This document shows positions 6,764 through 28,419 of a stretch of 32,769 nt of DNA, piece after piece. The position numbers and the translations under genes are program-made. Under the pieces are notes generated by a model. That model worked only from the letters and a program-made list of their open reading frames with translations, was not told where the DNA came from and ran no database searches. The stretch lies in NCBI GenBank assembly GCA_019120545.1, contig DWUX01000087.1, forward strand, positions 1 to 32,769. The letters run 5' to 3'. This DNA comes from Candidatus Blautia stercoripullorum. Its GTDB lineage: Bacteria; Bacillota; Clostridia; Lachnospirales; Lachnospiraceae. Within the stretch, counting starts at the first letter, position 1. Every line of letters begins with the position of its first letter.

Positions 6764-8020
6764 TTAATCTTTTCTTATGATTATAAAAACCGTCATTCCT
6801 GCGAATAAAACTGCGATTCCCGAAACAATCAGAGCATAAAATATTGAAATCCCTAATAGTCCGGCTTGATTCACTATGTACTTTCCTAACAGGACAAAAA
6901 TAGCGGATCCTATAAAATATCCCCAAATAAGCCAATTCTGATATCTGGTAACTGTTATGATCATCTGAAAGAAATTAACGAAAGCCAGCATTCCGCCTGC
7001 TATCAGCAGAATCACCAGTTCATTTTTATAGCCTGCTAAATTTACTCCATAAATCAATGACAAAACAGGGATTCCCAGAAAATAGCCTCCTGTTATGGCA
7101 AAAAGAGTTAAAACTAATATAAGTGCAGCTTGCTTCAGTATGATTCTGATTAGTTCCTGAATTCTTCCGTCGTTCCAGATAATCGCGATTTTATGGATAA
7201 TAGGCTGATAAACAAACTGGCTCATTAGGCCTATTACAAAAACCGGCATAAAAATATAGTTAAAGCAGGCTTGTTCTTCGCTGTTTAATATTGTATCAAT
7301 GGCATATTTAGGCGCGTTTCCTATATACATTACAAGTGAAGATGACAAAAATAATGGAAAACACTCTTTACCTAGCCGGAATATATTTTTTATATCCTGT
7401 TCTTTTTTTTCACTGCTAAAGTTTTCTAAAGCAATATGGTTCAAGTATAGAAACAGTAGCAAGGATATCACAAATGTACCCGCGGCAGTAATAATCAGAT
7501 CCTGAAAAATGTAATATAGGGTCAAAAAAGCGATAATATAGATTAGCATACGTACAGCGAGTACTTTTCCAGCTATATCCAAATGGTTTTTCTGTTGTAG
7601 CATCCCATGAAGGACGTCTTCAAATGCATCAATTATTTTTGTAAAACCGATCAAGATAACGACTATACTTTTATAATAACTATAATTTCCTGTGCCATAA
7701 CAGTATCCCACGTAAGCGCAGAGTACTATAATAGACGCAAGGGTAGTAACAGCTCTCCAGTTTCTATATGTCTGAAAGCTATATTTTTCATGAACATCCG
7801 ACGCCTGAAACTGCCGGATTCCATATCTTGACACTGTCATAATAAGGTTTGCTATAGCAAAAGCTATTGTAAATATTCCTGCATCCAGAATTGGATCTAT
7901 TCTGGAAATCAGCATCAAAATAAACACCGTTTGAAATGCATTGAGCATGGACGCACAAGTATTCCAAATGAAAGCAGACTTCTGAACATCAGCGGAATTA
8001 CATATAAATCTTCTCAACAT
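6764..8020 (-). CDS. Polytopic Wzx/MATE-like polysaccharide flippase (second flippase of the locus)
   Basis: 418 aa, ~12 hydrophobic segments; N-terminus KSAFIWNTCASMLNAFQTVFILMLISR typical of polysaccharide exporters. Confidence 0.75.
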   Translation of the reverse strand: MLRRFICNSADVQKSAFIWNTCASMLNAFQTVFILMLISRIDPILDAGIFTIAFAIANLIMTVSRYGIRQFQASDVHEKYSFQTYRNWRAVTTLASIIVLCAYVGYCYGTGNYSYYKSIVVILIGFTKIIDAFEDVLHGMLQQKNHLDIAGKVLAVRMLIYIIAFLTLYYIFQDLIITAAGTFVISLLLFLYLNHIALENFSSEKKEQDIKNIFRLGKECFPLFLSSSLVMYIGNAPKYAIDTILNSEEQACFNYIFMPVFVIGLMSQFVYQPIIHKIAIIWNDGRIQELIRIILKQAALILVLTLFAITGGYFLGIPVLSLIYGVNLAGYKNELVILLIAGGMLAFVNFFQMIITVTRYQNWLIWGYFIGSAIFVLLGKYIVNQAGLLGISIFYALIVSGIAVLFAGMTVFIIIRKD

Positions 8021-8046
8021 TTCTCCTCGATTCTGGTCAGCTTACA

Positions 8047-8994
8047 CTACGGCCTTTCTTTCTTGTCTTCTGATTTTACAATGTCCTTGATAACATACTG
8101 AGGTGTTTCATTGATACACATATAAATTCTTCCAATGTATTCACCGATCAGCCCCATGAAGATGAGTATAACTCCGCCGATCAAAAGATTGACGGCCATT
8201 AATGAACTCCACCCTACCTGTATATTCGCTACAACCAATTTTCGGATGATAGTGATAATTGCGGTTAACACTCCCACCCCGGCAAAACCAAAACCTACAC
8301 CTACCGCTACACGCAAAGGCTTAATGGAAAAAGCAGTAAAACCATTGAGCCATAATTTTAATAGCTTTTTAATATTATATCCTGAATGTCCGCTTGCTCT
8401 TACTCTTTGCTCAATATCAATGTTCCCGACATTTTGCGTAGTTCTTAAAATTATTCCAGATATATATGGATATGGCTGTCTATATTTCACCATTTCATCA
8501 ACAATATATCTTCTTGCCATAAAAAAAGCCGCCATATAAGTTCCTTTGGGCTTTTCAATAAGCCAATCCGACATTTTTCTATTTAATACGGAGCCCAGTC
8601 TTCTAAAAGCAGATGGCTGATTCCGTTCAATATATCTGGCACATACCACATCATAGCCCTTTTTGATTTCATCAAGGAAATCAAAAACCCTTCCTACCGG
8701 AGTCTGTCCATCATCATCTGAAGTCATTATATAATCGCCTGATACATAATTCAGTCCGGCTAAGAGAGCGTTCGGCTGTCCAACATTTTTTGCAAGGTCA
8801 ATAGCAATAAGATTACTCCTTTTTTGGGCAATACTTTTTATCACCTCTGCAGTATTGTCTTTTGAGCAGTCATTTACTAAAATAATTTCATATTCAATCT
8901 CTTGCCTTTGCTTCATAGCATCATCAATTTCTTGAATTACTTTGCTGATATTCTTAGATGAATTATAACAGGGAATCACAAACGAAATTTTCAT
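8047..8994 (-). CDS. GT2 glycosyltransferase with C-terminal TM segments, GtrB/DPM1-like (polyprenyl-phosphate sugar transferase)
   Basis: ISFVIPCYNSSKNISKVIQEI, DYIMTSDDDGQTP, two C-terminal TM helices, GEYIGRIYMCINETPQYVI; SD GGAGG. Confidence 0.88.
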   Translation of the reverse strand: MKISFVIPCYNSSKNISKVIQEIDDAMKQRQEIEYEIILVNDCSKDNTAEVIKSIAQKRSNLIAIDLAKNVGQPNALLAGLNYVSGDYIMTSDDDGQTPVGRVFDFLDEIKKGYDVVCARYIERNQPSAFRRLGSVLNRKMSDWLIEKPKGTYMAAFFMARRYIVDEMVKYRQPYPYISGIILRTTQNVGNIDIEQRVRASGHSGYNIKKLLKLWLNGFTAFSIKPLRVAVGVGFGFAGVGVLTAIITIIRKLVVANIQVGWSSLMAVNLLIGGVILIFMGLIGEYIGRIYMCINETPQYVIKDIVKSEDKKERP

Positions 8995-9012
8995 TTTTCA
9001 CACTTATCCTCC

Positions 9013-9687
9013 TTACAGAAAATCAAATCCTGTTTTATCCTTCAGATAGTAGCTCCTGTTAGGAACCAGGACATGCTGTTCCGGCACATCTTTTGCTGCA
9101 TATGCTCCGGCCCCAACATAGGCATATGAATGTACACACACATGATTATTAACACAAGAATTATTTCCTAAAAAGCAATGATTTTGAATCTTACTGTAGC
9201 CAGATAAACTAACAGAAGGCGCCAGATTATTAAAATCTCCCAAAATGTTATGATGAGGCAATACTACGTTAGGCCAGATAATGTTTCCACTACCCACAAT
9301 AGAATGGTGTTCTATAGATACATTCTGCATTATAATATTGCCTTCCCCAATTTTTTCTGTATCCACGCAGGCACTTTTATGTATCACATTGGGGATCTTA
9401 TATCCCTTTTCCTTAATTTGAAAAAATATTTCCATTCTTTGATCAAACATTTTTTTACCAATAAACCCCAGCACTATATCATAATCTTCAGGCGGACAAA
9501 TTTTTTCGATTTTTTCAAACGGCATCAGAGGTTTATTTTGATATTTATTCTCAGATATGTAATTTTCGTTAATTGTATATCCACAAATCTCACAATGATT
9601 CACTTTTTCCAGAACATAGGAAACTATATCAGAAAAGTCCCCTGTTCCAAAGACAATCACTTTTTTTCTTTCCATATTAAATCCCAT
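9013..9687 (-). CDS. NeuD/PglD-like sugar O/N-acyltransferase (left-handed beta-helix)
   Basis: Rossmann-like N-terminus KKVIVFGTGDFSDIV and hexapeptide repeats IGEGNIIMQNVSIEHHSIVGSGNIIWPNVVL...VGAGAYAAKDVP; start could be 9687 or 9675. Confidence 0.82.
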   Translation of the reverse strand: MGFNMERKKVIVFGTGDFSDIVSYVLEKVNHCEICGYTINENYISENKYQNKPLMPFEKIEKICPPEDYDIVLGFIGKKMFDQRMEIFFQIKEKGYKIPNVIHKSACVDTEKIGEGNIIMQNVSIEHHSIVGSGNIIWPNVVLPHHNILGDFNNLAPSVSLSGYSKIQNHCFLGNNSCVNNHVCVHSYAYVGAGAYAAKDVPEQHVLVPNRSYYLKDKTGFDFL

Positions 9688-9698
9688 CTTTCTAGTTT

Positions 9699-10661
9699 TT
9701 ATAGAAGTCCGATCACTATATCTGCAATATATTCCATATCTTCTATGTCATACCTCTGATCGACCGGTAAAAATACACCTTTCTCAGACATTTCATATTC
9801 AATGGTTCCATAGAAATCTTGACATATCAACTCTCTCCAAATTGCCGGTACATATATTTTCCGGTCGATCAACGCTCTTTTTATATTTCCAGATGGCAGA
9901 AATGGATATAAGTATAATGGATCCTCTGGTTCCTCCAGTTTAAAAAGATTATATTTACTCAGTTTTTTATGAAGCGCCTCAAAATTCTTTTTTCGTTTAT
10001 CCGCGGTATACTGATAATCAATACTGGACAGCATAGTTCTTGTCAGATCTGACATTGCGCAATAGTTATCCATAAAAAAAGAATCACTTTGAAGCTTTTC
10101 TTGATAAGAACTGTTTGTACCATATTCAAAGCTTTTAACCAGATATAGAAAATGATCTGAAATTTTACACTGTTTTAATTGAATATCTTTCAGATTCATT
10201 CCAACTAAAAATCCGCCGTCTGGAACGCCAAAAAACTTGCGGCAAGAATAAACATTAAATATGTCTTCTCTGAAAACAGGTGCTGAAAAAAAGGAATGTG
10301 TCTGATCAATTATGACATTTTTATAGCGGCCAAGAATCTCTTTGATTCTTTTATTCATACATCCGAAATAATTAACAAGAATAATTCCTTCATCTTCTCC
10401 TATATTATCCAGTACAGGGCATAAATGTTCATCCAGATAATATCGTTTTATAGAAATCCCTGTATTCTGAATCATTTTAAAGACGCTGCCACAAAAATAG
10501 TAAGGCACATGGATACTATGAATATCCATCATTTTCAGCGCATAATATATAGCCGCTTTTCCTGAATTTGTTCTTATTATATTCTCTTCACCATAGACTG
10601 AAAAAAAATCTTTTTCTATGTGCCCTTCAAAAGGCAGATAGCCTCCATATTCTTCTTTCAT
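9699..10661 (-). CDS. Divergent DegT/DnrJ-type aminotransferase-like protein
   Basis: NSGKAAIYYALK, VNYFGC, IIDQTHSFF, candidate PLP lysine in YSCRKFFGVPDGG; short (320 aa). Confidence 0.65.
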   Translation of the reverse strand: MKEEYGGYLPFEGHIEKDFFSVYGEENIIRTNSGKAAIYYALKMMDIHSIHVPYYFCGSVFKMIQNTGISIKRYYLDEHLCPVLDNIGEDEGIILVNYFGCMNKRIKEILGRYKNVIIDQTHSFFSAPVFREDIFNVYSCRKFFGVPDGGFLVGMNLKDIQLKQCKISDHFLYLVKSFEYGTNSSYQEKLQSDSFFMDNYCAMSDLTRTMLSSIDYQYTADKRKKNFEALHKKLSKYNLFKLEEPEDPLYLYPFLPSGNIKRALIDRKIYVPAIWRELICQDFYGTIEYEMSEKGVFLPVDQRYDIEDMEYIADIVIGLL

Positions 10662-10672
10662 ATCTCTATCCC

Positions 10673-12037
10673 CTACTCTACATTTACAATAAGATTTACC
10701 TTTTTTCCGCCAGGAATACTGATTGTGACTTCCGTACTGCCTTTTTCATGAGAAAATATAAAGTCATTGGCGCAGACAGCAATCTGACTATTGTCAGAAG
10801 TGTATTTTTTATTTGCGAAATCCCAGAACACCGGCGTTTGAGAATACTCTATTTGTCTGTATTTCTCCTCTTCCATATAAACTTCTGTCTCTTTCAATTC
10901 TAAATTTCCGAAGCCTATATTGGCTATGACTTCTGGTACAAATAAAAGGAAGATTACTATAGCGATACCGGCAAATATTTTTTTACAATGGTTGGGCTGA
11001 CAGCAGAACTGATACATCCGCTGAAAATGAATGATTTTTTTGATCAAAACGATTCCCATTGCAGCTAATACAGAAACAACTGTAACTCTTATAAATATTC
11101 CCAGCAGATTCTCCGTGTAGTATATAAATCCGACAAAATAGCGGATAAAAACTGCATGGATCAAAAACATTTCAAATGAATACTTTCCTAAAAAAATCAA
11201 AGGCTTAAATACTGCCATATTTTCCACACGTATATCGGCCAAAAACATCATCATAATTAAGACTAAGATCCAGTCCAGGACATAATAACTCAGCATCTCA
11301 TCCAGATAAATCTGGCGGATTATTGTCACTAATAAAAACAATGCAATATACACCGGAATCCTTATATATAATTTCTGAGTTCCTGATCTTTTCGCCGCTG
11401 CCTGTTCAATGAAAATTTTTCTTTCTGCAAAAATCATCCCAAAAACAAAAAATGCAAAATAAATAATAACAGTATTTATACCATCGTTCAAAAGAAGGAT
11501 CACAGTAAAAAGAGGCAGCAGAATCCAGTTGAGTCTTTTTAGCTTTTTTATTACTGCATATAATATAGGAAAGCAAACATAGTAAAGTAATGTAGCAGAA
11601 ATATACCACCAGGAATTAACAAATTTAGGAGAACCTGTAAAATAAGAAATTCCCATTCCATCCATTAACACATAATAAAATGGATGCCCGGCGTAAACAG
11701 TCTGAAAGTTTCCTGTTATAATTCCTATAAATAAAGCGGCTAAAATAAAAACCAGCCAAAAAGTCAAAAATATTTTTATAATATGAACAGATACAAACTG
11801 TATTGTTTGCTTTATATTGGAGATCTGCTGCCTCTCATACGAGCAATAAAGTCCATATCCACTTAGAATCACAAAGATTGCCACACATATTTTCGCAAAT
11901 GACTGCAAATTGGAAACTAAGTCTATTCCAGAGACAAAAAAGGTTACTTCTGTTGACTGCCATCCATGATGGAGAAACAGAAATAAAATCGCAACACCTT
12001 TTAAAATCATGGTATCATTCTTTGTAAATCTGTTCAC
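10673..12037 (-). CDS. Acyltransferase-3 family membrane protein with C-terminal extracytoplasmic beta-rich (Ig-like) tail
   Basis: GVAILFLFLHHGWQS, FAKICVAIFVILSGYGL, FVNSWWYISATLLYYVCFP, LGKYSFEMFLIHAVF; tail WDFANKKYTSDNSQIAV...HEKGSTEVTISIPGGKKVNLIVNVE. Confidence 0.85.
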   Translation of the reverse strand: MNRFTKNDTMILKGVAILFLFLHHGWQSTEVTFFVSGIDLVSNLQSFAKICVAIFVILSGYGLYCSYERQQISNIKQTIQFVSVHIIKIFLTFWLVFILAALFIGIITGNFQTVYAGHPFYYVLMDGMGISYFTGSPKFVNSWWYISATLLYYVCFPILYAVIKKLKRLNWILLPLFTVILLLNDGINTVIIYFAFFVFGMIFAERKIFIEQAAAKRSGTQKLYIRIPVYIALFLLVTIIRQIYLDEMLSYYVLDWILVLIMMMFLADIRVENMAVFKPLIFLGKYSFEMFLIHAVFIRYFVGFIYYTENLLGIFIRVTVVSVLAAMGIVLIKKIIHFQRMYQFCCQPNHCKKIFAGIAIVIFLLFVPEVIANIGFGNLELKETEVYMEEEKYRQIEYSQTPVFWDFANKKYTSDNSQIAVCANDFIFSHEKGSTEVTISIPGGKKVNLIVNVE

Positions 12038-12038
12038 T

Positions 12039-13937
12039 TTATTCTACTCCTCTAATAATCGCATCTGTTTCTTCAAGATTCTCTCCCGATCCTGGAACTA
12101 ATACCATATAGTAATCATTTATGTATTCCATGTCATAATTATTTTCCCACAAGAAACTGATAAATTGCTCTTTTTTTCCTTCATAATCGCTATTGTTCTC
12201 TATCGCATAGTTTTCCTCAAGCGTTTCTTCATCAAAACCATAAGAATAGTTTGTGCGGCAGAATAATACTACAGGAAGAGCATCCCCATATTTATCCTTG
12301 GCAGATGCAAGATCTGCCTGATATTGTTCCAAGCTATATGTGTTCGGTGTTACCCAAGCAGTTGTATACGATTCTTTGTCCGTCATATAATAAAACAGAA
12401 GAGAACTTCCAAATACCATCAGCGGCTGATCTTTATCAGACACCTCGTCAATAGCTCCTAATACTCCGTTTATTGAATCTGCCTCCCTCTGAGTGGTAAG
12501 TATTCCTCTTACCTTTTCCGAATTTACTGTGGCGGTCAATTCTAAACGATTTACAGAATCATAATTGAAGGTGTAATAAATCATATGCATAAATTTTGCC
12601 ATAAACATAACTAAAAACAGGAGAAAAACCTTGGTAATATTTTTTTTCTGTATGTAAACCCCTGTTTTCATATAAAAGAGCCGTCCGGCCTTCAATATAT
12701 TCTCATTGAAAAAGATTTCTTTTACTGCTGCTACAAAAACCGGACCCATAAGCCATAGTCCCAGTACAATATGTTTTGTTCCAGTATTAGATCCTGCGAT
12801 TGTAAGTACTACCAGCAGATAAGCGCCTATGATCATTAACGTTTTTTTTCTGTTTTCTTCTCCGTTTTTAAAACCATTGACTGCATAAAAAAGGAAAGCA
12901 AAAACATACATGACCCCTATAACAAATCGAGGACCTGTTGTCATCTGCGGCCAGGTTTCGGCCGGATTAATGTCGTAAGCAAAAAACATTTCATATGCAC
13001 ATATAATTACTATAGCAATCCCTAAAACAATACAAAAGAAACGTTTCATCTTAGTTTTTGTTTTTGTATATGCAATACTGACTCCAATCCCGGCTATAAA
13101 AATGCTAGTGACATATATGAAACCTGAAGCCATAACTTTCATATTTTCAAAAACCAGTGTATATAGCAAGTTATAAAATCCATATGCTGTGGAATTATCT
13201 GATGCGATATTACTCAGACGAAAGATATTGTTTATAAAATATTCATCCAGATTGGTTGCTACTAAGGCACCTGCAAAAATCAGGAATACTATAGCTGCTC
13301 CTACTACATAGGAAAGCACATGCTTCCAGAAGGTTTTCCAGCTTCTTTCATGCATAACCGTATCATATAGATATAGGAAAAATGTTACTGCAGCTACTAC
13401 GCTGCCCACTCTGGAAAAGACCAGCAGCATGTAGACCATACCAGACAAAAAACTTAATATAAATTTTTCTTTGATAATAGCTTTATACTGAAGACAAATA
13501 ATCACAGTCAGCAGAAAGGCATTAAATTGGTGATAATTGAAAATATTTAAATATGTATCAGCTGCCATTATCGAAAGAAAACTTCCAAGAAGAATACAAG
13601 TTTTTCCTAATACATTTTTAAAGGTAATGTATACAATAATAACTATACTCCATTCCAGAAGGACTTCTAAAAAATTAAATGCTAAAAGTCCTAACTCCCC
13701 AAAGGCCTGATCCCATAAATATCCTATAACAGTGGTAAAAAAAGTTGTATAATTGATTTTTTCAGGATTTGAAGCCAAATTTTCAAACGCAAACAAATGA
13801 TATCCGGTATCTCCTAAGTCCAGTCCCAAAAAAGCTCCTGTCAAAGGATAAATCATGATTAAGATTACCAAAAATACTTTCAATACCGTTTCTATCTTTT
13901 TATGATGATTTTTCTCCTGTACTGTCTTTCCTTTCAT
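12039..13937 (-). CDS. Polytopic membrane protein, putative GT-C-type glycosyltransferase
   Basis: 632 aa, many TM segments; acidic motif in first loop (GLDLGDTGYHLFAFENL) and large C-terminal soluble domain; ATGA-type 4-bp overlap with upstream gene. Confidence 0.5.
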   Translation of the reverse strand: MKGKTVQEKNHHKKIETVLKVFLVILIMIYPLTGAFLGLDLGDTGYHLFAFENLASNPEKINYTTFFTTVIGYLWDQAFGELGLLAFNFLEVLLEWSIVIIVYITFKNVLGKTCILLGSFLSIMAADTYLNIFNYHQFNAFLLTVIICLQYKAIIKEKFILSFLSGMVYMLLVFSRVGSVVAAVTFFLYLYDTVMHERSWKTFWKHVLSYVVGAAIVFLIFAGALVATNLDEYFINNIFRLSNIASDNSTAYGFYNLLYTLVFENMKVMASGFIYVTSIFIAGIGVSIAYTKTKTKMKRFFCIVLGIAIVIICAYEMFFAYDINPAETWPQMTTGPRFVIGVMYVFAFLFYAVNGFKNGEENRKKTLMIIGAYLLVVLTIAGSNTGTKHIVLGLWLMGPVFVAAVKEIFFNENILKAGRLFYMKTGVYIQKKNITKVFLLFLVMFMAKFMHMIYYTFNYDSVNRLELTATVNSEKVRGILTTQREADSINGVLGAIDEVSDKDQPLMVFGSSLLFYYMTDKESYTTAWVTPNTYSLEQYQADLASAKDKYGDALPVVLFCRTNYSYGFDEETLEENYAIENNSDYEGKKEQFISFLWENNYDMEYINDYYMVLVPGSGENLEETDAIIRGVE

Positions 13938-14596
13938 CTCTTTTCCTCTTCTGATTTCAAATATTTTTTTAGACAGACGATATCAAATGTATCCCATTTA
14001 TAGCGGTCAAGATAAGTAAACCAAATATCCTCCTGTTCCTCTATCTGGTTTAATTTCTGTATAAATTCTCTGGTATGAAGTTCTTTTGGAATAATAACAA
14101 CCCCTGAATCATCACATACAGCGATGCTTCCATCATACATCTCATAGTGGGCCTTCCGTATTCCTTCATCCAGTTCCCTTTCTGGTTTTTTATTAAAACA
14201 GCCAATGGGACTCAGACCTTTACACCAAACCGGATAATTCTGTTTGATCAGGTCGTTTCCATCTCGTAAATTCCCATTTGTAATAACAGCAGCAGCTTCT
14301 TTATACAGAACAATGAATTTTGTTACTAATTCTCCAATAGTAGAACGATCCCCACAGTTAAAAGCTTCTATAAGCACGATATCCCCTGGCTGGGTATCTC
14401 GAATCTGTTCATGCACTGTGTAATTTGAATTATCATATGCGTAGACCCAGCGCACAGTCCCTACGGCAAAATGTCCTCTGTTAACAGCATGAGAATTTTC
14501 AAATAAACCTGTCTTTCCCATGCAATCGGCAACCTCTGTAGTTGATATTTTATTCTTCTTTATCAGTTCGATCATTTCTTCTTTTATTCCGCTCAT
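13934..14596 (-). CDS. RraA-family protein (aldolase/decarboxylase-like)
   Basis: ISTTEVADCMGKTG, GDIVLIEAFNCGDRSTIGELVTKFIVLYKEAAAVITNGNLRDGNDLIKQNYPVWCKGLSP matches the RraA/HMG-aldolase family GELxxxxA...GxxxDGxxRD...P.(F/W)..G pattern. Confidence 0.85.
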   Translation of the reverse strand: MSGIKEEMIELIKKNKISTTEVADCMGKTGLFENSHAVNRGHFAVGTVRWVYAYDNSNYTVHEQIRDTQPGDIVLIEAFNCGDRSTIGELVTKFIVLYKEAAAVITNGNLRDGNDLIKQNYPVWCKGLSPIGCFNKKPERELDEGIRKAHYEMYDGSIAVCDDSGVVIIPKELHTREFIQKLNQIEEQEDIWFTYLDRYKWDTFDIVCLKKYLKSEEEKR

Positions 14597-14615
14597 ATCT
14601 TACCTCCTAAACAAA

Positions 14616-15833
14616 TCAAGAAATCACTTTTATCGTTGTTTCCACCTTTTTCATAAGATCTCTTAATTCTTTTTCACTTTCGCCATAGGCAATATAATAT
14701 CCAGCCCTTGATCGGTCATCTTCAGCTCTGCAAATTATATCTCCCAGTTGAAAATCAAGCCCTATATCAATGACCTGTGGAATCTGCTTTACTTCATCCA
14801 ATCCGTGAATTTCTTTCACAGGTCTTCCTGTTACCTCAAAATCTAGGAATTTTAATACTGCACATCTGTTTTTATAGCTTGGATCAATTTGAATCTTATC
14901 CCCGGCATCAATACCTAAAGCATGGCAGATTAAATACTTGTAATTATCTACACCGCTCATCAGAGGAACGATATGTGAAGCGATTTTAGTTCCGCCGCCT
15001 CTTGCAGCCATCTCGATCAAAATATATTCACCATTCTCAAATTTGTATTCTGCATGAGTTAATCCATAAGGAAGTCCTGTAGCGTCAATTAATCGATTAT
15101 TCGTATGTCCCAATTTTTCATAGTCATATTTTTCGTTGATATTTGAAAAAAACAGCTCACTTGCAATGCTTTTATTGTAATCAAAGTGTTTTTTCTGTGA
15201 AATGCACACCGTCACATGACCATTAGGCGTTTTGATACCATCTACTGTAAATTCCGTTCCCTCAATATATCTCTCAGCAATTACACTCTTTTTGTCATCT
15301 GAATACTGTCTGGCATCATTAAAATATTCTCCTATTTTATCTTTGTCAGCCATGGTAATCGTATGGACGCCTCTGCTTGACTGGCTGTCAATAGGCTTAA
15401 TTATTATCTTTTTCCCTAATTTTTCCAAAAATTCCAAGATTTCTTCTGCACATTCACATTTTTTATATTCGGGATAAAGGAAACCATGATCTCTGCAAAA
15501 TTTGCGCATTTCAAATTTGTCAGTAAAAAGCTTTGCATATAATTGCCCGATAGACGGCAATTTTAATTGATCCGCTACATATGCTACCGTGGGAACTGCA
15601 ATATCACTCTGATCCGTAACTACACCATCTATATGATTTTGCATTGCGATCTGCAAATTTTTTTCTTTGTCTCTTACATCCGCAACAGCAGTAACATCCG
15701 CATATTTAAAACCTGGAGAATCTTCATACAAATTTGAGTTCACTACAAAGCAGCCCAATTCTTTAGCTCTTTTCACAAGAGGAACCTGCCATGTTCCTCC
15801 GGCAATAATCATAAGTCTTTTATTAATCTGCAC
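14616..15833 (-). CDS. ATP-grasp domain protein (carboxylate-amine ligase-like)
   Basis: N-terminal LMIIAGGTWQVPLVKRAKELG, ATP-grasp KKIIIKPIDSQSSRGV, AERYIEGTEFTVDG, ILIEMAARGGGTKI. Track ORF starts at TTG (15869); GTG at 15833 with AAAGGAAG SD or ATG at 15812 look more likely. Confidence 0.85.
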   Translation of the reverse strand: MQINKRLMIIAGGTWQVPLVKRAKELGCFVVNSNLYEDSPGFKYADVTAVADVRDKEKNLQIAMQNHIDGVVTDQSDIAVPTVAYVADQLKLPSIGQLYAKLFTDKFEMRKFCRDHGFLYPEYKKCECAEEILEFLEKLGKKIIIKPIDSQSSRGVHTITMADKDKIGEYFNDARQYSDDKKSVIAERYIEGTEFTVDGIKTPNGHVTVCISQKKHFDYNKSIASELFFSNINEKYDYEKLGHTNNRLIDATGLPYGLTHAEYKFENGEYILIEMAARGGGTKIASHIVPLMSGVDNYKYLICHALGIDAGDKIQIDPSYKNRCAVLKFLDFEVTGRPVKEIHGLDEVKQIPQVIDIGLDFQLGDIICRAEDDRSRAGYYIAYGESEKELRDLMKKVETTIKVIS

Positions 15834-15861
15834 CTTTATGTACTTCCTTTCACATATATAC

Positions 15862-16992
15862 TTATCCAAGATAAAATCTCTTTACCTGTTCCACAACAAA
15901 TTCTATATCTTTCTTCTCTAAATGATAATACATGGGCAGTCTGAGAAGTCTCTCACTTTCTTTTGTAGTATACCTATCTTCGCCATAAAAAGTTCCGTAT
16001 TTTCTGCCCGCAGGAGATGAATGTAAAGGTATATAGTGAAAAACCGCTTTTATTCCTTTTGCTTCCAGATAAGCGATCAAATCCTGTCTCTCTTCTAAAT
16101 CTTTCGTTTTAATATAAAACATATGAGCATTATGAGTGCACTCTTTGGGTATTACTGGAAGCTGTATATATCCCTTTTCCTCCAACTCTTTCAAACTGCT
16201 AAAATACATATTCCAGGATCTCATTCTATTGTCTAAAATAGTATCCGCCACTTCCAGCTGGGCCCAAAGATATGCCGCATTCAGCTCGCTGGGAAGATAA
16301 GAGGAGCCTGCGTCCATCCAGGTATATTTATCAATCTGTCCCCTGAAAAATTTGCTCCTGTTGGTTCCTTTTTCCCGGATGATCTCGGCACGCTCGATAT
16401 TTTCCGGGTCTTTGATCAGAAGGGCTCCCCCTTCTCCCATACTGTAATTTTTTGTTTCATGGAAGCTGTAGCAGCCATAATCTCCGATGGTGCCAAGCTG
16501 TCTGCCTTTGTATGTAGAGAGCACTCCCTGAGCGGCATCTTCGATCACAGACAAATGATATTTTTCTGCAATGCCGCATATGGTATCCATCTCACAGGCC
16601 ACTCCTGCATAATGTACCGGGACAATAGCTTTGGTCCTTTCTGTCACAGCCTCTTCGATCAGATTTTCATCTATATTCATCGTATCCGGCCGGATATCTA
16701 CAAAAACTGCCTTTGCTCCCCGCAGTACAAAAGCGTCTGCCGTAGAGACAAAGGTATAAGAAGGCATGATCACCTCGTCTCCCGGCTGGATATCTGCCAG
16801 AATCGCCGCCATCTCTGTGGCATGTGTGCAGGAAGTAGTCAGCAAAGCTTTCGCTGTACCGGTTTTCTGCTCCAGCCATGCCGAACATTTTTTTGTAAAA
16901 ACCCCGTCCCCGCAGATCTTTTTGTTCTCAATAGCCTCCTTAATATATTTCATTTCATTTCCCACTACAGGCGGCACATTAAAACTTATCAT
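15862..16992 (-). CDS. WecE/RffA-like dTDP-4-amino-4,6-dideoxygalactose transaminase (DegT/DnrJ/EryC1/StrS)
   Basis: MISFNVPPVVGNEMKYIKEAIENKKICGDGVFTKKCSAWLE...SYTFVSTADAFVLRGAKAVFVDIRPDTMNIDE...IEDAAQG...SFHETKNYSMGEGGAL; ATG at 16992 with AGGAG SD, shorter than the track ORF (17079). Confidence 0.88.
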   Translation of the reverse strand: MISFNVPPVVGNEMKYIKEAIENKKICGDGVFTKKCSAWLEQKTGTAKALLTTSCTHATEMAAILADIQPGDEVIMPSYTFVSTADAFVLRGAKAVFVDIRPDTMNIDENLIEEAVTERTKAIVPVHYAGVACEMDTICGIAEKYHLSVIEDAAQGVLSTYKGRQLGTIGDYGCYSFHETKNYSMGEGGALLIKDPENIERAEIIREKGTNRSKFFRGQIDKYTWMDAGSSYLPSELNAAYLWAQLEVADTILDNRMRSWNMYFSSLKELEEKGYIQLPVIPKECTHNAHMFYIKTKDLEERQDLIAYLEAKGIKAVFHYIPLHSSPAGRKYGTFYGEDRYTTKESERLLRLPMYYHLEKKDIEFVVEQVKRFYLG

Positions 16993-17014
16993 CTTTTGCT
17001 TTCTCCTTCTTTTT

Positions 17015-18802
17015 CTATTCTGTATAAACTTTCCATATCTGATATCCGTCAATTTCTTTATAGAGCTCAGCTCTTGCATCTGGATAATAATGCTCCTGGA
17101 GATAGGTGATCTTCCACTGTAAGGTACGGGTATCCGAGTCCACTAAGTAAACATTGTCATTTGCCAAAGCTTTCAATGGCTGCTCTGCATGATATCTGCT
17201 TAAAGTTTTTATGCATTCCGGATAGTTTGTCATGATGCTTGCAAAATATAAAGAATTTTGGAAATATTCTTCTGGCAGAGTATAGAAAGGATTCCATTCA
17301 TAATACAGGGTCTGCATGGTTGTCTGAAAATCCAGGAAATAAAAATTTTGTTTATTCGATTCTATCTCTTCTATCAGGCCATTCGCCGGCACATTTTTAT
17401 TCACAACTTTTCTATATTTTCTTGCATCATAATTCCAGGATTCAAAGAAAGTTTCTTCTATATAATCCTTTCTGCTTTCCTCTGTCACATCCAGATAAGA
17501 TCTGTCTGGAATATATAGAATAGACTGCATAATTACGCATACTAATGTGATTATAGCACAAATCCTGGTAATTTCAACATTATGCCTTTTCCTTCCTTCT
17601 GTATTTTTCTCCCAGAAAAAGCACAGGCATAAAAACATGCAAAGAAAAATCCCGAATTCTGTTCGATACACGATCCTTTCTATTACAAAAAAATATACCA
17701 GATAGAGGACTCCCATACCGGCCGCCGGCAGTCCCGCCAAAAAATATTTGTTTTCCAAAGCAGCTGTCAGTACAAATAAAATCACAAAGGCAATACAGCC
17801 CGGATAATTAAAGTACTGTCTTTCCTGCATTCCCTCCAGAATTGCTTCTTTGGAAATCTCCGCATTTTCTTTATAATCTGATATTATCTCTGCAGCCTTT
17901 TTCATAACGTCCAGACTGAAAACTTTATTGTCTGCAAAGTTCCAGGAACGAAGCAGCAGATAATCATTTTCTGATATGCCGATCTTCTCCAGTTCTTCCT
18001 GGTATGCTTCATATCCATAGTCGCTTGCATCTACAATGGCAGCTCTGGCCGCGTTATATTCTCTGAAATATTTATATTCTTCGTCGCTGTTATAAATCGC
18101 CTGATCGATCTGTCTTATACCTGCAGCCGCTCCTATCAGCAAGATCCCGGGCAAGAAAAATCCCAGCAGTCGTTTTTTCCAGTTATTATTTTTGTCTTTA
18201 AAAAATATAAGGGTTTCTGAGATGATAAGAATTGTAAGAAAACCGCCTGCTAAAAAGATGGTATTGAACCGGATCATGGTTCCCAGCAGGCATAGAAGGG
18301 CAGAAAGTATTTTTATCCTTTTTGTCTTATTTTCTGCCAGCGCCCATATAAACACCACGCCTCCTGCCATTACCGCCAGTACGGCGGTCTTTGTAAACTG
18401 GACCAAAACATAAACATCATCTGCAAAGAAAGTCAAAAGTAATACGATAAGCATAACTGCCGGCTTTTTATCTGATTTTTCCAGCAGCATGTAAGAAAAG
18501 ATGGTGCAGGAGGCAAAGCATAGCAGAATCTGTGAGATAAGATACCAACTGATATGAGAGTTAAGGTAATAAAAAGGCAATAGGATATAACCCCATATAA
18601 TATTAATGAATATCATATGGGGGTTCGGTTCTCCTCCAAATGCCCCGGACATGATCGATGCCATTAAAAAATCATCTGATGTTTCATATTTAATATCACA
18701 GAACAGAAGGATAGATAGCAAAAATATCAGATTTATCCCTGCCGCCAGGCAGACATTAGATTTCTTTATCCTGTTGATCCATGTTCTCCAGTGTATTTTC
18801 AT
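17015..18802 (-). CDS. Polytopic membrane protein, putative GT-C-type glycosyltransferase
   Basis: ~595 aa, multiple TM segments, acidic YETSDDFLMASIMSGAFGGEPNPHMIF after first TM; start 18802 (GGAGAAG SD) or 18814. Confidence 0.5.
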   Translation of the reverse strand: MKIHWRTWINRIKKSNVCLAAGINLIFLLSILLFCDIKYETSDDFLMASIMSGAFGGEPNPHMIFINIIWGYILLPFYYLNSHISWYLISQILLCFASCTIFSYMLLEKSDKKPAVMLIVLLLTFFADDVYVLVQFTKTAVLAVMAGGVVFIWALAENKTKRIKILSALLCLLGTMIRFNTIFLAGGFLTILIISETLIFFKDKNNNWKKRLLGFFLPGILLIGAAAGIRQIDQAIYNSDEEYKYFREYNAARAAIVDASDYGYEAYQEELEKIGISENDYLLLRSWNFADNKVFSLDVMKKAAEIISDYKENAEISKEAILEGMQERQYFNYPGCIAFVILFVLTAALENKYFLAGLPAAGMGVLYLVYFFVIERIVYRTEFGIFLCMFLCLCFFWEKNTEGRKRHNVEITRICAIITLVCVIMQSILYIPDRSYLDVTEESRKDYIEETFFESWNYDARKYRKVVNKNVPANGLIEEIESNKQNFYFLDFQTTMQTLYYEWNPFYTLPEEYFQNSLYFASIMTNYPECIKTLSRYHAEQPLKALANDNVYLVDSDTRTLQWKITYLQEHYYPDARAELYKEIDGYQIWKVYTE

Positions 18803-20294
18803 GATCTTCTCCATGTTTTTTCCAACGCTCCAAAAATATTTTTCCTATAATCTCCATTACAAACTTTTCTCTCTGAACCAGCAGTAATCCTCCATAACAG
18901 CCGAAAAACAGCACCGCGGTGACTGCCAGGTTTAAAAAGATCTGAAGTTCTGAAGCCCCATCCGGAAGGGCCAGAAACCTCTTGGTCACTAATAATACAC
19001 CCAGAGAAACCAAGGAGGCAAGAAGATTTTCCCGAATGCTGATTTTTTTCACCAATTCCCGGAGCATTTTTCTCAGATAAATGCACTGGACCACAAGTAC
19101 GATAAGTTCCGCCAGCAAAGTAGCAAAAGCCGCTCCTGCCGCTCCGTAGTTCCCGATCAGGGCCAGATTCAGCACAAAGTCCAGGACAGCTCCATATATA
19201 ATAGAATACACCACTTTATTTTCATATCCTTGAGGCGTAAGGATCTGAATTCCTGTAATATTGGATAAACCGATAAACAGCACTGCCGGCATGAGGATCT
19301 GCATAGGCAGCACAGAAGGCCCGAATTGATCTCCTGCCAGCAGCAAAATAGATTCTTTTGCCATAAAAATAAAGTATATTGTTACTGACAGTCCGATGAT
19401 GGTCACAAAGTCAAAGGCTTTTACTACCATTCTATGAAATGCCTTTTTTTCTCCCTTTTCTATATAATAGGAAAGTCTGGGAAGAAGTACTGTTCCAAGG
19501 GAAGTAATAAGGCTGACTAATAAAGTTTTTACTTTGATCGCCGCAGTATAATACCCTACCTCTGTACTGCCTCTCATAAAACGGATCATAACAACATCCA
19601 GATTTGTATATACACTGATGGCCGCCGATGTAGCAAAGAAAATCAGTATAGGTTTTATGTGCTGTCTGAAATCGTAAGGACCTGTTTTTTTAAAACTGAT
19701 ATACTTTCTCAGATTCCAGAAGTTGAGCACATAGGACGCGCTTCCTGCAAATACGGTAATAGCTCCATATTTAATATAGTCTTCCGGGTTTTTGACCCAT
19801 AAGAACATCATGATAATAGATATGATCTTAAATATAATGGAACAGGTAGTAATGTAGGCATACTGCTCAATGGCATTATAGAACCAGGAAACTCCAATAA
19901 CATTGAGGACCATACTGATACTGTTGATCAGAAGCAATGTCCTTTCTTCTGCAAACTCCGGAACTACCGCCAGCATGATCAGGAATACCGTAAAGGAGAT
20001 CAGCATGCTGACCGTGTTGATGATCATCAGCTCCTGAACGGTCTTTGACAGTTTTTCTTTATTGTCCCGGACTTTTGCGCATGTACGGATTCCATAGGTA
20101 GGGATCCCTAAAGACGCAAACATCATAAAGTATGTGATGATCGCCGCCGCCGAATCTACTTTTCCGCTTCCTGCCGGCTGCAGGGTTCTGAAAATATAGG
20201 GAGCAGTGATCAGCGGAAAAATAACAGAAGATGCTGTCAATATAAAATTCATGATAAAATTAAATTTCACAGATCGTATTTTCATATTTTCCAC
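18756..20294 (-). CDS. Wzx-type oligosaccharide flippase (RfbX/MATE superfamily)
   Basis: NFIMNFILTASSVIFPLITAPYIFRTLQPAGSGKVDSAAAIITYFMMFASLGIPTYGIRTCAKVRDN is typical of flippase proteins; 512 aa. Confidence 0.93.
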   Translation of the reverse strand: MENMKIRSVKFNFIMNFILTASSVIFPLITAPYIFRTLQPAGSGKVDSAAAIITYFMMFASLGIPTYGIRTCAKVRDNKEKLSKTVQELMIINTVSMLISFTVFLIMLAVVPEFAEERTLLLINSISMVLNVIGVSWFYNAIEQYAYITTCSIIFKIISIIMMFLWVKNPEDYIKYGAITVFAGSASYVLNFWNLRKYISFKKTGPYDFRQHIKPILIFFATSAAISVYTNLDVVMIRFMRGSTEVGYYTAAIKVKTLLVSLITSLGTVLLPRLSYYIEKGEKKAFHRMVVKAFDFVTIIGLSVTIYFIFMAKESILLLAGDQFGPSVLPMQILMPAVLFIGLSNITGIQILTPQGYENKVVYSIIYGAVLDFVLNLALIGNYGAAGAAFATLLAELIVLVVQCIYLRKMLRELVKKISIRENLLASLVSLGVLLVTKRFLALPDGASELQIFLNLAVTAVLFFGCYGGLLLVQREKFVMEIIGKIFLERWKKHGEDHENTLENMDQQDKEI

Positions 20295-20302
20295 TCATTC
20301 CT

Positions 20303-21316
20303 TTATGACTCTGTGGTTTTGTTTCTTTTTTTACTGATATCCATGATCCATCTGTATCCTAAAAAACGGGTCTTTCTGAGCAGTCGCAGCATCCCGCTGT
20401 AAGTGCCTGTCTGCTCATAAACTTTTAAGTTTCTTTTTTTCAATTCTTCGTCGAATCTTTTGAATTTTTCCCGTATTTCCTTATTGGAAGCAGGAAAGCT
20501 CATAAAAATATCCGCCTGATCTCTGGCCATCTGGGAAATCCGGGTACACATATAATTTATCTTTTCCGGATCGCCGCCCTTTGCCATATAACTGGATAGG
20601 AAATCTGCCAGATGAAGGACCACATCTATATGATTCTGCAGATGTTTCTGATAGCCCGCCATACTTACGCTTTGGGTCGCTACCGCCAGACGGTACATAT
20701 AAACATACTCGTCCAGATACCAGACGCTTTCCGCATAGGGAACAGGGAAGAGAATATACTCTACATCCACATAAAAGCAGTGCTCGTCCAACTTTATTTT
20801 ATTTTTTTTCAGCAGTTCTGTCCGAATAGTCAATCCGTGCATAGGTATCTGGATCTTTTCCAGCACTTTCTGGATATTCAAAACTTTTTTTGCAGGGATC
20901 TGCCGGAAACTTTTCTCTTTTCTGGCTTTGGTGACATCATTGACTTCATAATAATTTGTTATCACAAAATCACAGCGGCAGTTTTCCAGTTCTTTGACCA
21001 GATTCTCAAAACCCTGAGTCTCCACCCAGTCGTCTCCATCTACCACTTTGAAATATTTCCCTTTTCCCTCCAGGATCCCCCGGTTAATGGTTGATCCGTG
21101 TCCCCCGTTTTCTTTTGTGATCACACGGAAAACATCTGGATATTTCTGTTCATATTTTTTGCCAATTTCCTCTGTTCGGTCTGACGAGCCGTCATTGACG
21201 ATCAGGACTTCTATCCTCTTCAGCCATTGGGGTGCTATCAGAAAAGAAGCTATTGTCTGTTCCAGATATTGTTCCACATTATAGGAGGGGATTACTACAG
21301 TAAGTAATTTTTCCAT
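20303..21316 (-). CDS. GT2 family glycosyltransferase
   Basis: LTVVIPSYNVEQYLEQTI, EVLIVNDGSSDRT, GKYFKVVDGDDWV. Confidence 0.92.
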   Translation of the reverse strand: MEKLLTVVIPSYNVEQYLEQTIASFLIAPQWLKRIEVLIVNDGSSDRTEEIGKKYEQKYPDVFRVITKENGGHGSTINRGILEGKGKYFKVVDGDDWVETQGFENLVKELENCRCDFVITNYYEVNDVTKARKEKSFRQIPAKKVLNIQKVLEKIQIPMHGLTIRTELLKKNKIKLDEHCFYVDVEYILFPVPYAESVWYLDEYVYMYRLAVATQSVSMAGYQKHLQNHIDVVLHLADFLSSYMAKGGDPEKINYMCTRISQMARDQADIFMSFPASNKEIREKFKRFDEELKKRNLKVYEQTGTYSGMLRLLRKTRFLGYRWIMDISKKRNKTTES

Positions 21317-21320
21317 ACCA

Positions 21321-22328
21321 TCACACTTTCCGGCTGCGGAATAATCTCTGAACGAGTATCCTTCCCCTAGACAGCATTACCATAAACCAATACTGTTCTG
21401 TTTCTATTGTTTTTAAATGCAGCCTGTCTTTTTTTGATAAATATTGTTTCAGATATATATTTCTATGAAAATCAGGAAACATCGTATAGATATACCTTTT
21501 AAATTTTTTCAGCACAGGGCTTTTTCTGTCTTGCAGAATAATTTCTCTGGAAGGAAGAAAATATCCATTCATAACTGCAAGATACTCCAGTTCCTGATAA
21601 TAGGTTTCAAATGCCTCATGTTCTTTAAAAAAGTCCATGACCTGATCGATCATTTCTGTACGGTCCTGATAATTTTTTTCCGCTTTTGCTCCTGTCATAA
21701 TGGATCCTGAGCGGATCATATAATAATAAAAAGGTTCTTTTAAATATCCTATTTTTTCAGCCATAAGAAGCAGCTTGGGAATGGTTCCAAGGTCCTCATA
21801 ATATTTTCCCACAGGAAATCGGATCTTCGTTTTTATAAACAGATCTCTTCTGAAAAGTTTATTTACTGCCGATGGGGAACCAAAAAGAAACCTGGGCTCT
21901 TCCCTCAAAGAATAGGTCCCGCTTTTTTCAATCTCCAGGGTGGTGATCTCTTTTAATCCCTCTTCTACCCGGATAAAATCAAAGATCACCATATCGCATT
22001 GATCTTTTTCCGCCCGGTCCACGCATTTCTTGATCAGATCTTTTTTTACATAATCGTCACTGTCTGTAAACAATACATATTTGCCGGAAGCTGCTTCCAG
22101 TCCGGCGTTTCTGGCATCGCTGAGTCCTCCGTTCTTTTTATGGATTACTTTTATCCGGGTATCCTGTTTGGCATATTCATCACACATTTCTCCGCAATGA
22201 TCCGGTGATCCGTCATCTACAAGAATAATCTCTATATTTTTGTACGTTTGAGTTCTGAGACTTTCCACACATTTTTCAAGATATTTTTCTACATTATATA
22301 TAGGTACAACTACGCTCACCAGTTCCAT
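21321..22328 (-). CDS. GT2 family glycosyltransferase
   Basis: VSVVVPIYNVEKYLEKCVESLRTQTYKNIEIILVDDGSPDHCG, GKYVLFTDSDDYV. Confidence 0.93.
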   Translation of the reverse strand: MELVSVVVPIYNVEKYLEKCVESLRTQTYKNIEIILVDDGSPDHCGEMCDEYAKQDTRIKVIHKKNGGLSDARNAGLEAASGKYVLFTDSDDYVKKDLIKKCVDRAEKDQCDMVIFDFIRVEEGLKEITTLEIEKSGTYSLREEPRFLFGSPSAVNKLFRRDLFIKTKIRFPVGKYYEDLGTIPKLLLMAEKIGYLKEPFYYYMIRSGSIMTGAKAEKNYQDRTEMIDQVMDFFKEHEAFETYYQELEYLAVMNGYFLPSREIILQDRKSPVLKKFKRYIYTMFPDFHRNIYLKQYLSKKDRLHLKTIETEQYWFMVMLSRGRILVQRLFRSRKV

Positions 22329-22343
22329 GGAGCCGCTCCTTTC

Positions 22344-23462
22344 TCATTCCATTCCCTTGACCAGTTGTTTTATCTGTTGGATTTTCAAGTTTTCTAAACT
22401 ATAATTTTCTTTATTACCCAACCATTTAATCCCTGCTCTGTCCTTCTGTCTGTGGGCTAAGATAAAGTCTGCCCATTGTTCCGGCTTATCTTTCAAAGAC
22501 ATAAACCAGCAGTTTTCCGTGATCCTGGCTTCTTCTGTAATCCTGCTGCTCATCAGACAGGGCAGACCGCTGCACTGAGCCTCCACCCCAACCGTTGGAA
22601 GTCCTTCAAAATTTGATGGAAGCACAAAAAAGTCCATTGCCTGAAACAGCCGATATACATCCTTCCGGAAACCTGTCATAATCACGCAGTCTCCCAAACC
22701 TTTTTCATCCGCCATTTTTTTTATTTTTTCAAAACGAGGCCCCTTTCCTGCCATCAGCAAAAGAGCCTTCGGACATTTTCTGTGGATTTCTTCAAAAACT
22801 TCCAGAAGATATTCCTGATTCTTCTGATAACAAAAATTTCCCACATGTCCGATCACAAATCTGTCTTCAATTTTTAACTCTTTCCTTGTCTCCCTGCGCA
22901 GGACGTCATTGAAAGAAAATTTTTTCATATCTATGGCATTAAAGATTGTATGAAATCTGGGAGAATCCACGATTTTTTTAGGAAACATCCATTCTCCTGC
23001 TTTTTTGGAACAGCCATAATATTCGGTTCCAAATCGGTATAAAAAACTTCTGCAGAAATAATGGATTCCATCCAGGACTTTTCTTTTCCCTATATTTTCA
23101 CAGTCATTCCCGCTGGAATGACTGTGGATCAGGATTCTTGGAATCCTGCATCTGCTGGCCGCCATGGCTGCAATACAGTCAATGGCTGTAGAAATATTCA
23201 AATATACCATATCATAATCTTCTGCTTTGATCAGCTGTTTCACCTGCCGGAACTGGGATACCGGATGTCTCAGATTTGCTATGGGAAAGATCCTGGAATG
23301 ATACTTTTTAAGATATTCTTTCAGATCTCCATCTACCTCATTGCTGAGAAAATCTATCTGCATTTCGTCATCCCATACATTCTCAAGGAAATTCAGAAGA
23401 TAACGGTCAATTCCTCCTGCCTTTCCATCCATAATAAATCCCACCAGTATTTTTCTGTCCAT
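22344..23462 (-). CDS. GT4-type glycosyltransferase
   Basis: FVIGHVGNFCYQKNQEYLLEVFEEI, LLMAGKGPRFEKIKKMA, VIMTGFRKDVYRLFQAMDFFVLPSNFEGLPTVGVEAQ. Confidence 0.92.
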   Translation of the reverse strand: MDRKILVGFIMDGKAGGIDRYLLNFLENVWDDEMQIDFLSNEVDGDLKEYLKKYHSRIFPIANLRHPVSQFRQVKQLIKAEDYDMVYLNISTAIDCIAAMAASRCRIPRILIHSHSSGNDCENIGKRKVLDGIHYFCRSFLYRFGTEYYGCSKKAGEWMFPKKIVDSPRFHTIFNAIDMKKFSFNDVLRRETRKELKIEDRFVIGHVGNFCYQKNQEYLLEVFEEIHRKCPKALLLMAGKGPRFEKIKKMADEKGLGDCVIMTGFRKDVYRLFQAMDFFVLPSNFEGLPTVGVEAQCSGLPCLMSSRITEEARITENCWFMSLKDKPEQWADFILAHRQKDRAGIKWLGNKENYSLENLKIQQIKQLVKGME

Positions 23463-24980
23463 CTATCTCTTCTCCTCTGTCTGCCTTGAAAAATAGTGCA
23501 TCAGATACCCCAGAAAATCCCATAAAATAAAGGTTCCCGGTGAATTTGTATATATTCCTTCCAGAAGAAACAGCATGGATACTGCGATCACAGCAATGAC
23601 TGCAGTTAAAAAGGTAATATACAGTCTGTCCCTTTCAGGAATACTCTTGATCCCGCGGCACCAGCTCCAGAGCACCCCTCCGATAAATATCAGAGAAATA
23701 ACTGCACCCAGGATTCCCTGATACACCAGGATATTCAGGTACCCGTTGTGCAGGCTGACATAATTTCCCTGATCATTATTTACCACATAAGTATCTGGAA
23801 GCGTCTCTTCCACATAAGGCAGGAAAGAGTTATATCCGGTTCCCGTAACAGGTTTTGTTTTCCATATTTCTATCCCGCTTTTCCAAAGGTCGAATCTTCC
23901 GTTGCTCACATCTGTCTGGATATCCTGGGCACGTCCCACGGTTTCCTGTTCTTCTGTTTCTGGCTCCTGGGGAGTCTCTTCGCTTTTTTGTTCCGGGCTG
24001 GAAGCAGAAGCATTTTCTGTACTTGCAGCAGATTTTCCACTGTCTCCGGTATTTGCTTCTGTACTTTCTCCGCCGCCTACTTTCTTTTCAGAAGGAATAT
24101 TTTCTTCACTCTCCGGCTGTTGTGCCAGGGCTTCGATCTGAGCATTATACCACCCCTTCAAAAGAGAAGTTCCTCCTACAAAAGCCACAGCAAAAACTGC
24201 CGTAAGGAAAAATCCCACAGCAATTCCTTTCCAGTTTTTTCTTCTGCCGTACAAAAATAATAAGAGGATCACCCCTATACCGGCACACATGGTTACTTCT
24301 GCGGTCCTGGAATCACTGAATATCACATAAACATAGTCTGCACAAATAGCCAGAACATACCATATCCTGCACAGTCCTTTTCTGATAAAGATGAAATATA
24401 TGCACATCAAAATGGCCGCTACACTGAATACGCCTCCATAGTTAGGATCTGTATAAACACCCCAAAGCCTTCCCCACTGAAATCCGGCGATCAGGACTTC
24501 GCCGCTCTCAGTAGTCCAGAGATCATGATAATTCTGCAGTAATAAATAAATACTTGCCAGAGCACATACGACACTTAAAACAATAAGGATATCTGCAAAT
24601 ATATGAAATTCTTTCTTATAAGAATTTCTGCTTCTTGTCCCGTCACATGTATATAGAAGGAAAAAAATAAAACCTGTCCAGATCACCCACTTTAAGTCTG
24701 CCATTCCCGCATTATATTTCCAGTTCACAAATATCGTAAGACAAAAGCTAATACAGAATAATACCAGCACGGGCAGATAGGGCGTCTTAATATAATCTTT
24801 CAGGAAAAACAAACGACCTGCCGCCGCCAACACTCCTAAAATCAGGCAGACCTTTACCAATGCCGGCTGAATGGGGGAATCATAAATAAAAGAGTTAAAA
24901 GTAAATAGTCCCAAAAGTAAATATGTGATTTTAAATCCCCATTCTAATATCTTTATATATTCTTTCTTGATCAGTTTCAT
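23463..24980 (-). CDS. O-antigen ligase/polymerase (Wzy-like) membrane protein
   Basis: GRLWGVYTDPNYGG, GRFDLWKSGIEIWKTKPVTGTGYNSFLPYVEETL...HNGYLNILVYQGILGAVISL; long acidic insert. Confidence 0.88.
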   Translation of the reverse strand: MKLIKKEYIKILEWGFKITYLLLGLFTFNSFIYDSPIQPALVKVCLILGVLAAAGRLFFLKDYIKTPYLPVLVLFCISFCLTIFVNWKYNAGMADLKWVIWTGFIFFLLYTCDGTRSRNSYKKEFHIFADILIVLSVVCALASIYLLLQNYHDLWTTESGEVLIAGFQWGRLWGVYTDPNYGGVFSVAAILMCIYFIFIRKGLCRIWYVLAICADYVYVIFSDSRTAEVTMCAGIGVILLLFLYGRRKNWKGIAVGFFLTAVFAVAFVGGTSLLKGWYNAQIEALAQQPESEENIPSEKKVGGGESTEANTGDSGKSAASTENASASSPEQKSEETPQEPETEEQETVGRAQDIQTDVSNGRFDLWKSGIEIWKTKPVTGTGYNSFLPYVEETLPDTYVVNNDQGNYVSLHNGYLNILVYQGILGAVISLIFIGGVLWSWCRGIKSIPERDRLYITFLTAVIAVIAVSMLFLLEGIYTNSPGTFILWDFLGYLMHYFSRQTEEKR

Positions 24981-26080: not shown

Positions 26081-26118
26081 TTTATCATCCTTCTCTCATT
26101 TAAATTTTGATATATCCA

Positions 26119-27189: not shown

Positions 27190-27190
27190 A

Positions 27191-28405: not shown

Positions 28406-28419
28406 ATATTGTCTCCTGT

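Follow-up and report, generated by a model that had tools for sequence, protein, structure and literature searches.

A conserved RraA and ATP-grasp gene pair in a polysaccharide operon of Candidatus Blautia stercoripullorum and its possible part in N-acylation of amino sugars

Results

The window analysed here is the whole of a 32,769-nucleotide stretch of Candidatus Blautia stercoripullorum (contig DWUX01000087.1), from an assembly of 3.18 Mb in 261 contigs. An unbroken polysaccharide operon runs along its minus strand from position 30327 to position 6764 with intergenic gaps of <60 base pairs (bp), and inside it three intact, adjoining and co-directional minus-strand genes encode a WecE-type dTDP-4-amino-4,6-dideoxygalactose transaminase of 376 amino acids (aa) (15862–16992), an ATP-grasp carboxylate-amine ligase of ~405 aa with a LAL_C2 C-terminal domain (14616–15833) and an RraA-family protein of 220 aa, a predicted metal-dependent aldolase/lyase (13934–14596). 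The original prediction had read these genes as a contiguous cassette for a new N-acyl amino sugar, and their contiguity within a polysaccharide operon was confirmed by coordinates, strand and domain scores alike. The longest open frame of the ATP-grasp gene spans 14616–15869, the likelier start being a GTG codon at 15833, which lies behind an AGGAAG motif and agrees with the N-terminal ends of homologues.

The WecE-like 4-aminotransferase is what it had been taken for, scoring 652 bits against TIGR02379 (cut-off 434.85) and 652.6 bits against PRK11706 (cut-off 375), matching the solved WecE structures 6BLG and 4PIW at ~560 bits and keeping the pyridoxal phosphate (PLP) lysine K181 together with D152. 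As RmlA and RmlB, which are needed for the WecE substrate, are encoded elsewhere in the host genome (rmlA and rmlB), formation of dTDP-linked 4-amino-4,6-dideoxy-D-galactose (dTDP-Fuc4N) is well supported.

The RraA-family protein belongs to PF03737 (77.9 bits, gathering cut-off 24.5), and its AlphaFold2 model (predicted local distance difference test score, pLDDT, 94.4) gave as best fold match in the PDB the 4-hydroxy-4-methyl-2-oxoglutarate/4-carboxy-4-hydroxy-2-oxoadipate (HMG/CHA) aldolase 3NOJ (E 7.2e-15), ahead of ribonuclease (RNase) regulators. In a sequence alignment, aldolase residues N71, H75, G101, R123 and D124 corresponded to N58, H62, G88, R111 and D112 of the window protein, and H62, G88, R111 and D112 were invariant in 38/38 subfamily members, with N58 present in 37. 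In the HMG/CHA aldolase, D124 is a metal ligand, and R123 is a catalytic residue that stabilises the enolate of pyruvate (PMC5065237). The window RraA thus has the fold and pyruvate-site residues in common with this catabolic enzyme and shares the pyruvate/metal-site pattern of a class II pyruvate aldolase, which predicts an aldolase or a close variant of one. It differs from the HMG/CHA aldolase in its score far below the equivalog cut-off (53.3 bits against TIGR02798, cut-off 304.5) and in a family-specific conserved C-terminal segment, EEQEDIWF. A non-catalytic function, as binding partner or regulator after the manner of the Escherichia coli RNase E regulator, is suggested by the family name and by the existence of regulatory members, but it is highly improbable since the score against the RNase E regulator equivalog NF006875 was only 21.9 bits (cut-off 136) and the active-site residues are invariant across several phyla; on the same two grounds a regulatory role was rejected.

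The ATP-grasp protein scored above cut-off with both PF13535 (52.1 bits) and LAL_C2, PF18603 (43.3 bits), and its model (pLDDT 92.5) matched the folds of 4DIM and of the L-amino-acid ligases 3VOT and 4WD3. Residues K118, K158, E199, H272, E274, E286 and R290 were invariant in 16 diverse members, with the magnesium/ATP residues K158, E199, E274, E286 and R290 retained. The scores against named L-amino-acid ligase equivalogs fell far below their cut-offs (BacD, NF053745, 23.0 against 850 bits; DdaF, NF041595, 34.0 against 840 bits). In fold and residues the protein resembles an active carboxylate-amine ligase close to the L-amino-acid ligases. Loss of catalytic residues from either protein would have told against the proposed pathway; both have kept them.

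When 84,980 species genomes were scanned with the window RraA protein, 40 loci were obtained, and neighbours were counted in 39 loci where RraA was matched over its full length and the flanks were long enough (L003–L036, L038–L041 and L049, the last from a later search; RraA in L013, L031 and L035 was counted from tblastn positions), the neighbour counts resting on open-frame calling and on profiles built from these same loci. All 39 but L013 and L024, 37 loci in total, had a co-directional ATP-grasp gene no more than 3 kb from RraA; the distance was at most 75 bp in 26 of the 37, and in two the ATP-grasp match was weak (68–72 bits). The titles of the loci covered Bacillota, Bacteroidota, Campylobacterota and Cloacimonadota along with a Myxococcales, a Gastranaerophilales and a Sphingomonadales metagenome-assembled genome; among cultured strains, the cassette is present in [Ruminococcus] faecis JCM 15917, Dorea sp. 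5-2, Cohnella sp. CFH 77786 and Paenibacillus montaniterrae J40TS1; in the plasmids searched, no RraA relative was found at E 1e-20. Because this first scan used window-protein peptides, a broader profile-based sampling of the order, phylum and family was made, in which the RraA subfamily occurred in six other genomes (G260, G489, G523, G826, G905 and G914, the match in G914 being short with an internal stop), every one with an ATP-grasp gene in the same gene cluster. The genes are thus not grouped by chance. Within the order, the RraA subfamily was present in 2/393 genomes as against 74/393 for ATP-grasp relatives.

Of the 39 loci, 12 contained WecE and 20 more a different DegT aminotransferase encoded on the same strand. 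The proposed three-gene cassette therefore holds in its RraA and ATP-grasp part, whose conserved co-occurrence outside this strain is borne out by both samplings, but WecE is one of several aminotransferase partners: RraA and ATP-grasp form a conserved two-gene core unit, with WecE a frequent, not constant, companion. Pairwise distances among RraA and ATP-grasp proteins were correlated (r 0.72, Mantel p 0.001), and in the 10 loci with WecE the correlation was 0.78 for RraA with ATP-grasp versus 0.51 for RraA with WecE. The RraA-linked ATP-grasps occupied at least two separate groups in the ligase tree, from which it follows that the partnership arose more than once or was often lost.

The pair was not confined to Fuc4N-type loci. 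It also occurred in L008, L025, L026, L040 and L041, which are nonulosonate clusters containing relatives of NeuB and PseG; L008 has in addition a PIG-L deacetylase, by which an amine could be set free. A methoxy-trihydroxyhexanoyl nonulosonate, reportedly described in a study of the Treponema denticola flagellar glycan, would suit loci of this type. A S-adenosylmethionine (SAM)-dependent methyltransferase accompanied RraA in 11 loci, and all 10 loci with a strong Amidohydro_2 match also had a methyltransferase, while L123 and L124 had the amidohydrolase without a labelled methyltransferase. An aspartate-aminotransferase-like gene stood beside the pair in L010, L012, L015, L016 and L033. In the sister loci L045 and L046 an HMGL-type aldolase took the place of RraA next to the same partners, an ArnC-like glycosyltransferase and a homologue of the PLP enzyme ORF320 described below, and their ATP-grasps nested among the RraA-linked ones in the tree; L048 had an Asp/Glu racemase and DapB. 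These genes are suggestive of alternative acid suppliers for the same kind of ligase.

Other genes were seen in these and related loci: a radical SAM/SPASM protein in the pair-bearing nonulosonate clusters L008 and L026, aldo/keto reductase family members in L008, L025 and L026, a PhyH-type dioxygenase gene near the pair in L029, L031, L034 and L039, and an HMGL-like domain fused to or adjoining a cytidylyltransferase-like protein in L018 (13781–16147) and L021 (14707–16973). In other families of the order, WecE, an ArnC-like family 2 glycosyltransferase (GT2) and ATP-grasp occurred without RraA in L064, L075, L076, L084, L086, L094, L097 and L099, all eight in a similar setting with neighbours of ~300, 310 and 255 aa.

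Downstream of RraA in the window, all on the minus strand, lie six further genes. The first (12039–13937), whose start overlaps the RraA stop codon by 4 bp, encodes a 632-aa integral-membrane protein with no match in Pfam or NCBIfam and with homologues in six RraA loci besides the window; its size, context and membrane character suggest a GT-C-type transferase. It is followed by an Acyltransferase-3 membrane protein (10673–12037; PF01757, 76 bits) predicted to act in O-acylation, and by ORF320 (9699–10661), a divergent DegT-superfamily PLP enzyme of 320 aa that had no Pfam match and no match in a profile search against PDB sequences and was placed by profile-profile comparison only (hhalign, 98.3% against a WecE/DegT profile). 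K142 and D119 of ORF320 were invariant in eight homologues, and its family is conserved in the related loci L005, L015, L045, L046, L093, L104 and L111, adjoining ATP-grasp and the HMGL aldolase in L045 and L046; it possibly aminates the aldolase product.

The NeuD/PglD/VioB-like hexapeptide acetyltransferase (9013–9687) scored 133.2 bits against the NeuD/PglB/VioB model TIGR03570, below the cut-off of 160.8, and such a gene was found near RraA in eight loci, the window included; the enzyme is a possible competitor for the 4-amine or a possible acetylator of the added acyl group. The GT2 of polyprenyl-phosphate glycosyltransferase type (8047–8994; PF00535) is PgfS/ArnC-like, with 169 bits for NF047588 and 167 bits for the ArnC model NF007986 (cut-off 529), both below the equivalog cut-offs, and ArnC-like GT2 genes recur beside WecE/ATP-grasp in other loci. 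The last gene (6764–8020) encodes a second, Wzx-like flippase, predicted from its length and polytopic sequence, with homologues in L004, L009 and L046; its place is occupied in other loci by ArnE/ArnF-like EamA pairs, and from gene type and context it is predicted to export a lipid-linked sugar. The operon thus holds two flippase-like genes. At its start lies a second DegT aminotransferase gene (29122–30327, minus strand), for which the closest models, PseC and ArnB, both scored below cut-off. The GC content was 0.33–0.38 from the ATP-grasp gene downstream (6764–15869) and 0.38–0.45 for most of the operon upstream (15862–30327), a difference that would fit the addition of a decoration module.

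Discussion

We propose, with a probability of about one half, that RraA and ATP-grasp act as an acid-making and amide-ligating unit in a module whose product is a side branch of N-acylated 4-amino-4,6-dideoxy-D-galactose. RmlA, RmlB and WecE would provide dTDP-Fuc4N, a well supported step. RraA, as a metal-dependent class II pyruvate aldolase or close variant, would then form a hydroxylated 2-oxo acid, which ORF320 might turn into an amino acid, and the ATP-grasp ligase would activate the carboxylate as an acyl phosphate and join the acid or its derivative to the 4-amine of dTDP-Fuc4N, after which the NeuD-like enzyme may acetylate the newly added amino group. The GT2 would move the sugar onto undecaprenyl phosphate, the second flippase would export it and the 632-aa membrane protein would attach it to the polysaccharide as a side branch. 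In other genomes the same pair would serve nonulosonates, with methyltransferase and amidohydrolase tailoring the acid.

Several observations weigh against this proposal. Aldolase D102 has E89 as its counterpart in the window RraA, a position that varies among E, D, S and A within the subfamily, and one residue more separates it from the R-D pair than in the aldolase, so that aldolase activity is not assured. In addition, FlDet, an RraA-family enzyme, is a dehydratase/decarboxylase and thus catalyses another reaction (PMC8563752). That RraA likewise acts on a sugar-derived 2-keto-3-deoxy acid, with the ligase step unchanged, would accord with this precedent and with the variable D102 position, but is very unlikely given that the nearest solved fold is the aldolase 3NOJ and that R111, D112, H62 and N58 form the pattern of an aldolase pyruvate site. 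The apparent replacement of RraA by the HMGL aldolase is only suggestive because it rests on two related genomes and because other polysaccharide loci, too, have HMGL-like genes, there in company with cytidylyltransferase-like ones.

RraA was absent from more than 20 loci that combined WecE and ATP-grasp with an ArnC-like GT2 and, in many cases, with transporters of ArnE/ArnF type. As WecE with ATP-grasp and no RraA is far commoner, the ligase belongs to amino-sugar modules in which RraA is one of several optional parts, probably for acid supply. The many such loci without an acid-making gene, together with the LAL_C2 domain and the L-amino-acid-ligase fold, favour a scheme in which Fuc4N is ligated to an ordinary amino acid (e.g. 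Ala, Gly or Asp) by ATP-grasp and RraA has a side job such as oxaloacetate decarboxylation, an RraA-type activity known from the family name, that feeds or balances this amino acid. We regard this as unlikely, since the RraA and ligase genes are neighbours in most loci, since RraA co-varies less with WecE than with the ligase, and since methyltransferase and amidohydrolase in the extended loci suggest a special acid.

The main competing claim on the 4-amine of Fuc4N could come from the NeuD-like acetyltransferase. Were it to make plain Fuc4NAc, RraA and ATP-grasp would modify another residue of the same polysaccharide, for which the second DegT aminotransferase gives another amine; the recurrence of NeuD/VioB-like genes noted above would agree with this. 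It is nevertheless quite unlikely, in that L017, L018, L021 and L023 have an ArnC-like GT2, ATP-grasp and RraA with no NeuD beside the pair, and L032, L038 and L039 have WecE and the pair without NeuD. The original claim that RraA supplies an acid which the ligase links as an amide fits the variant cassettes, whereas we infer the identity of the acid and the acceptor atom, because the NeuD-like enzyme could acetylate the 4-amine instead. Returning to the acid-making and amide-ligating unit, a broader version of it can be put forward tentatively: a modular unit across several phyla in which a recruited RraA aldolase makes hydroxy-oxo acids from which ATP-grasp would build a novel class of N-acyl groups on Fuc4N and nonulosonates. 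Its acid gene would be exchangeable (RraA, HMGL aldolase, or racemase and DapB), and methyltransferase, amidohydrolase and aminotransferase would tailor the acid.

Parts of the scheme have counterparts in characterised systems. The WecE reaction is expected to be identical to that of enterobacterial common antigen biosynthesis, and in the Arn pathway (ArnB, ArnA, ArnC, ArnE, ArnF and ArnT) a 4-amino sugar nucleotide is likewise made, N-acylated, put on undecaprenyl phosphate, flipped and transferred outside; the window module differs in its sugar, Fuc4N, and in that an ATP-grasp ligase would take over the N-acylation done there by formyl or acetyl transferases. In the Clostridioides difficile type B flagellin glycan locus CDR20291_0244–0247, an FdtB-like DegT-family sugar aminotransferase adjoins a PF13535 ATP-grasp gene that is needed for the terminal peptidylamido-sugar (PMC5207246), but there the sugar is another one, the acid part is sulfonated, the target is flagellin, not a polysaccharide, and RraA is absent. 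The sfmABCDE genes of Shewanella oneidensis also combine a PF13535 ATP-grasp (SfmE) with a methyltransferase, but with a thiamine pyrophosphate enzyme and a reductase, not RraA; the sfmE mutant has a smaller flagellin, and in the glycan a sugar of pseudaminic type carries a methylated outer part that lacks nitrogen (PMC3765264). On the chemical side, hydroxy-methyl-pyroglutamyl amino sugars occur in the O-antigens of Vibrio cholerae O5, Plesiomonas shigelloides O74 and Vibrio anguillarum V-123, which shows that 3- and 4-amino sugars can be N-acylated by branched hydroxy acids whose carbon skeleton is like that of glutamate (PMC10609480), and the V-123 acid skeleton could derive from 4-hydroxy-4-methyl-2-oxoglutarate. 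In the open-licence literature we found neither a gene link, tested or otherwise, between O-antigens of these types and RraA nor any description of RraA combined with ATP-grasp, in keeping with the original statement, which knew of no pathway described with just these enzymes. A Vibrio capsule paper that names rraA was set aside as it concerns a housekeeping rraA/menA boundary gene, not a cassette.

How antigenic a bacterial surface is and how phages recognise it are shaped by N-acyl groups on amino sugars, and for the unusual groups, to our knowledge, few of the responsible genes are known. Proteins of the RraA subfamily are usually annotated as ribonuclease regulator or aldolase; if our proposal is true, such a subfamily would have a biosynthetic job, and its gene adjoining a PF13535/LAL_C2 ligase gene would provide a signature for finding polysaccharides with new acyl groups, with a reach extending over gut Lachnospiraceae, Bacteroidota, Paenibacillaceae and Campylobacterota.

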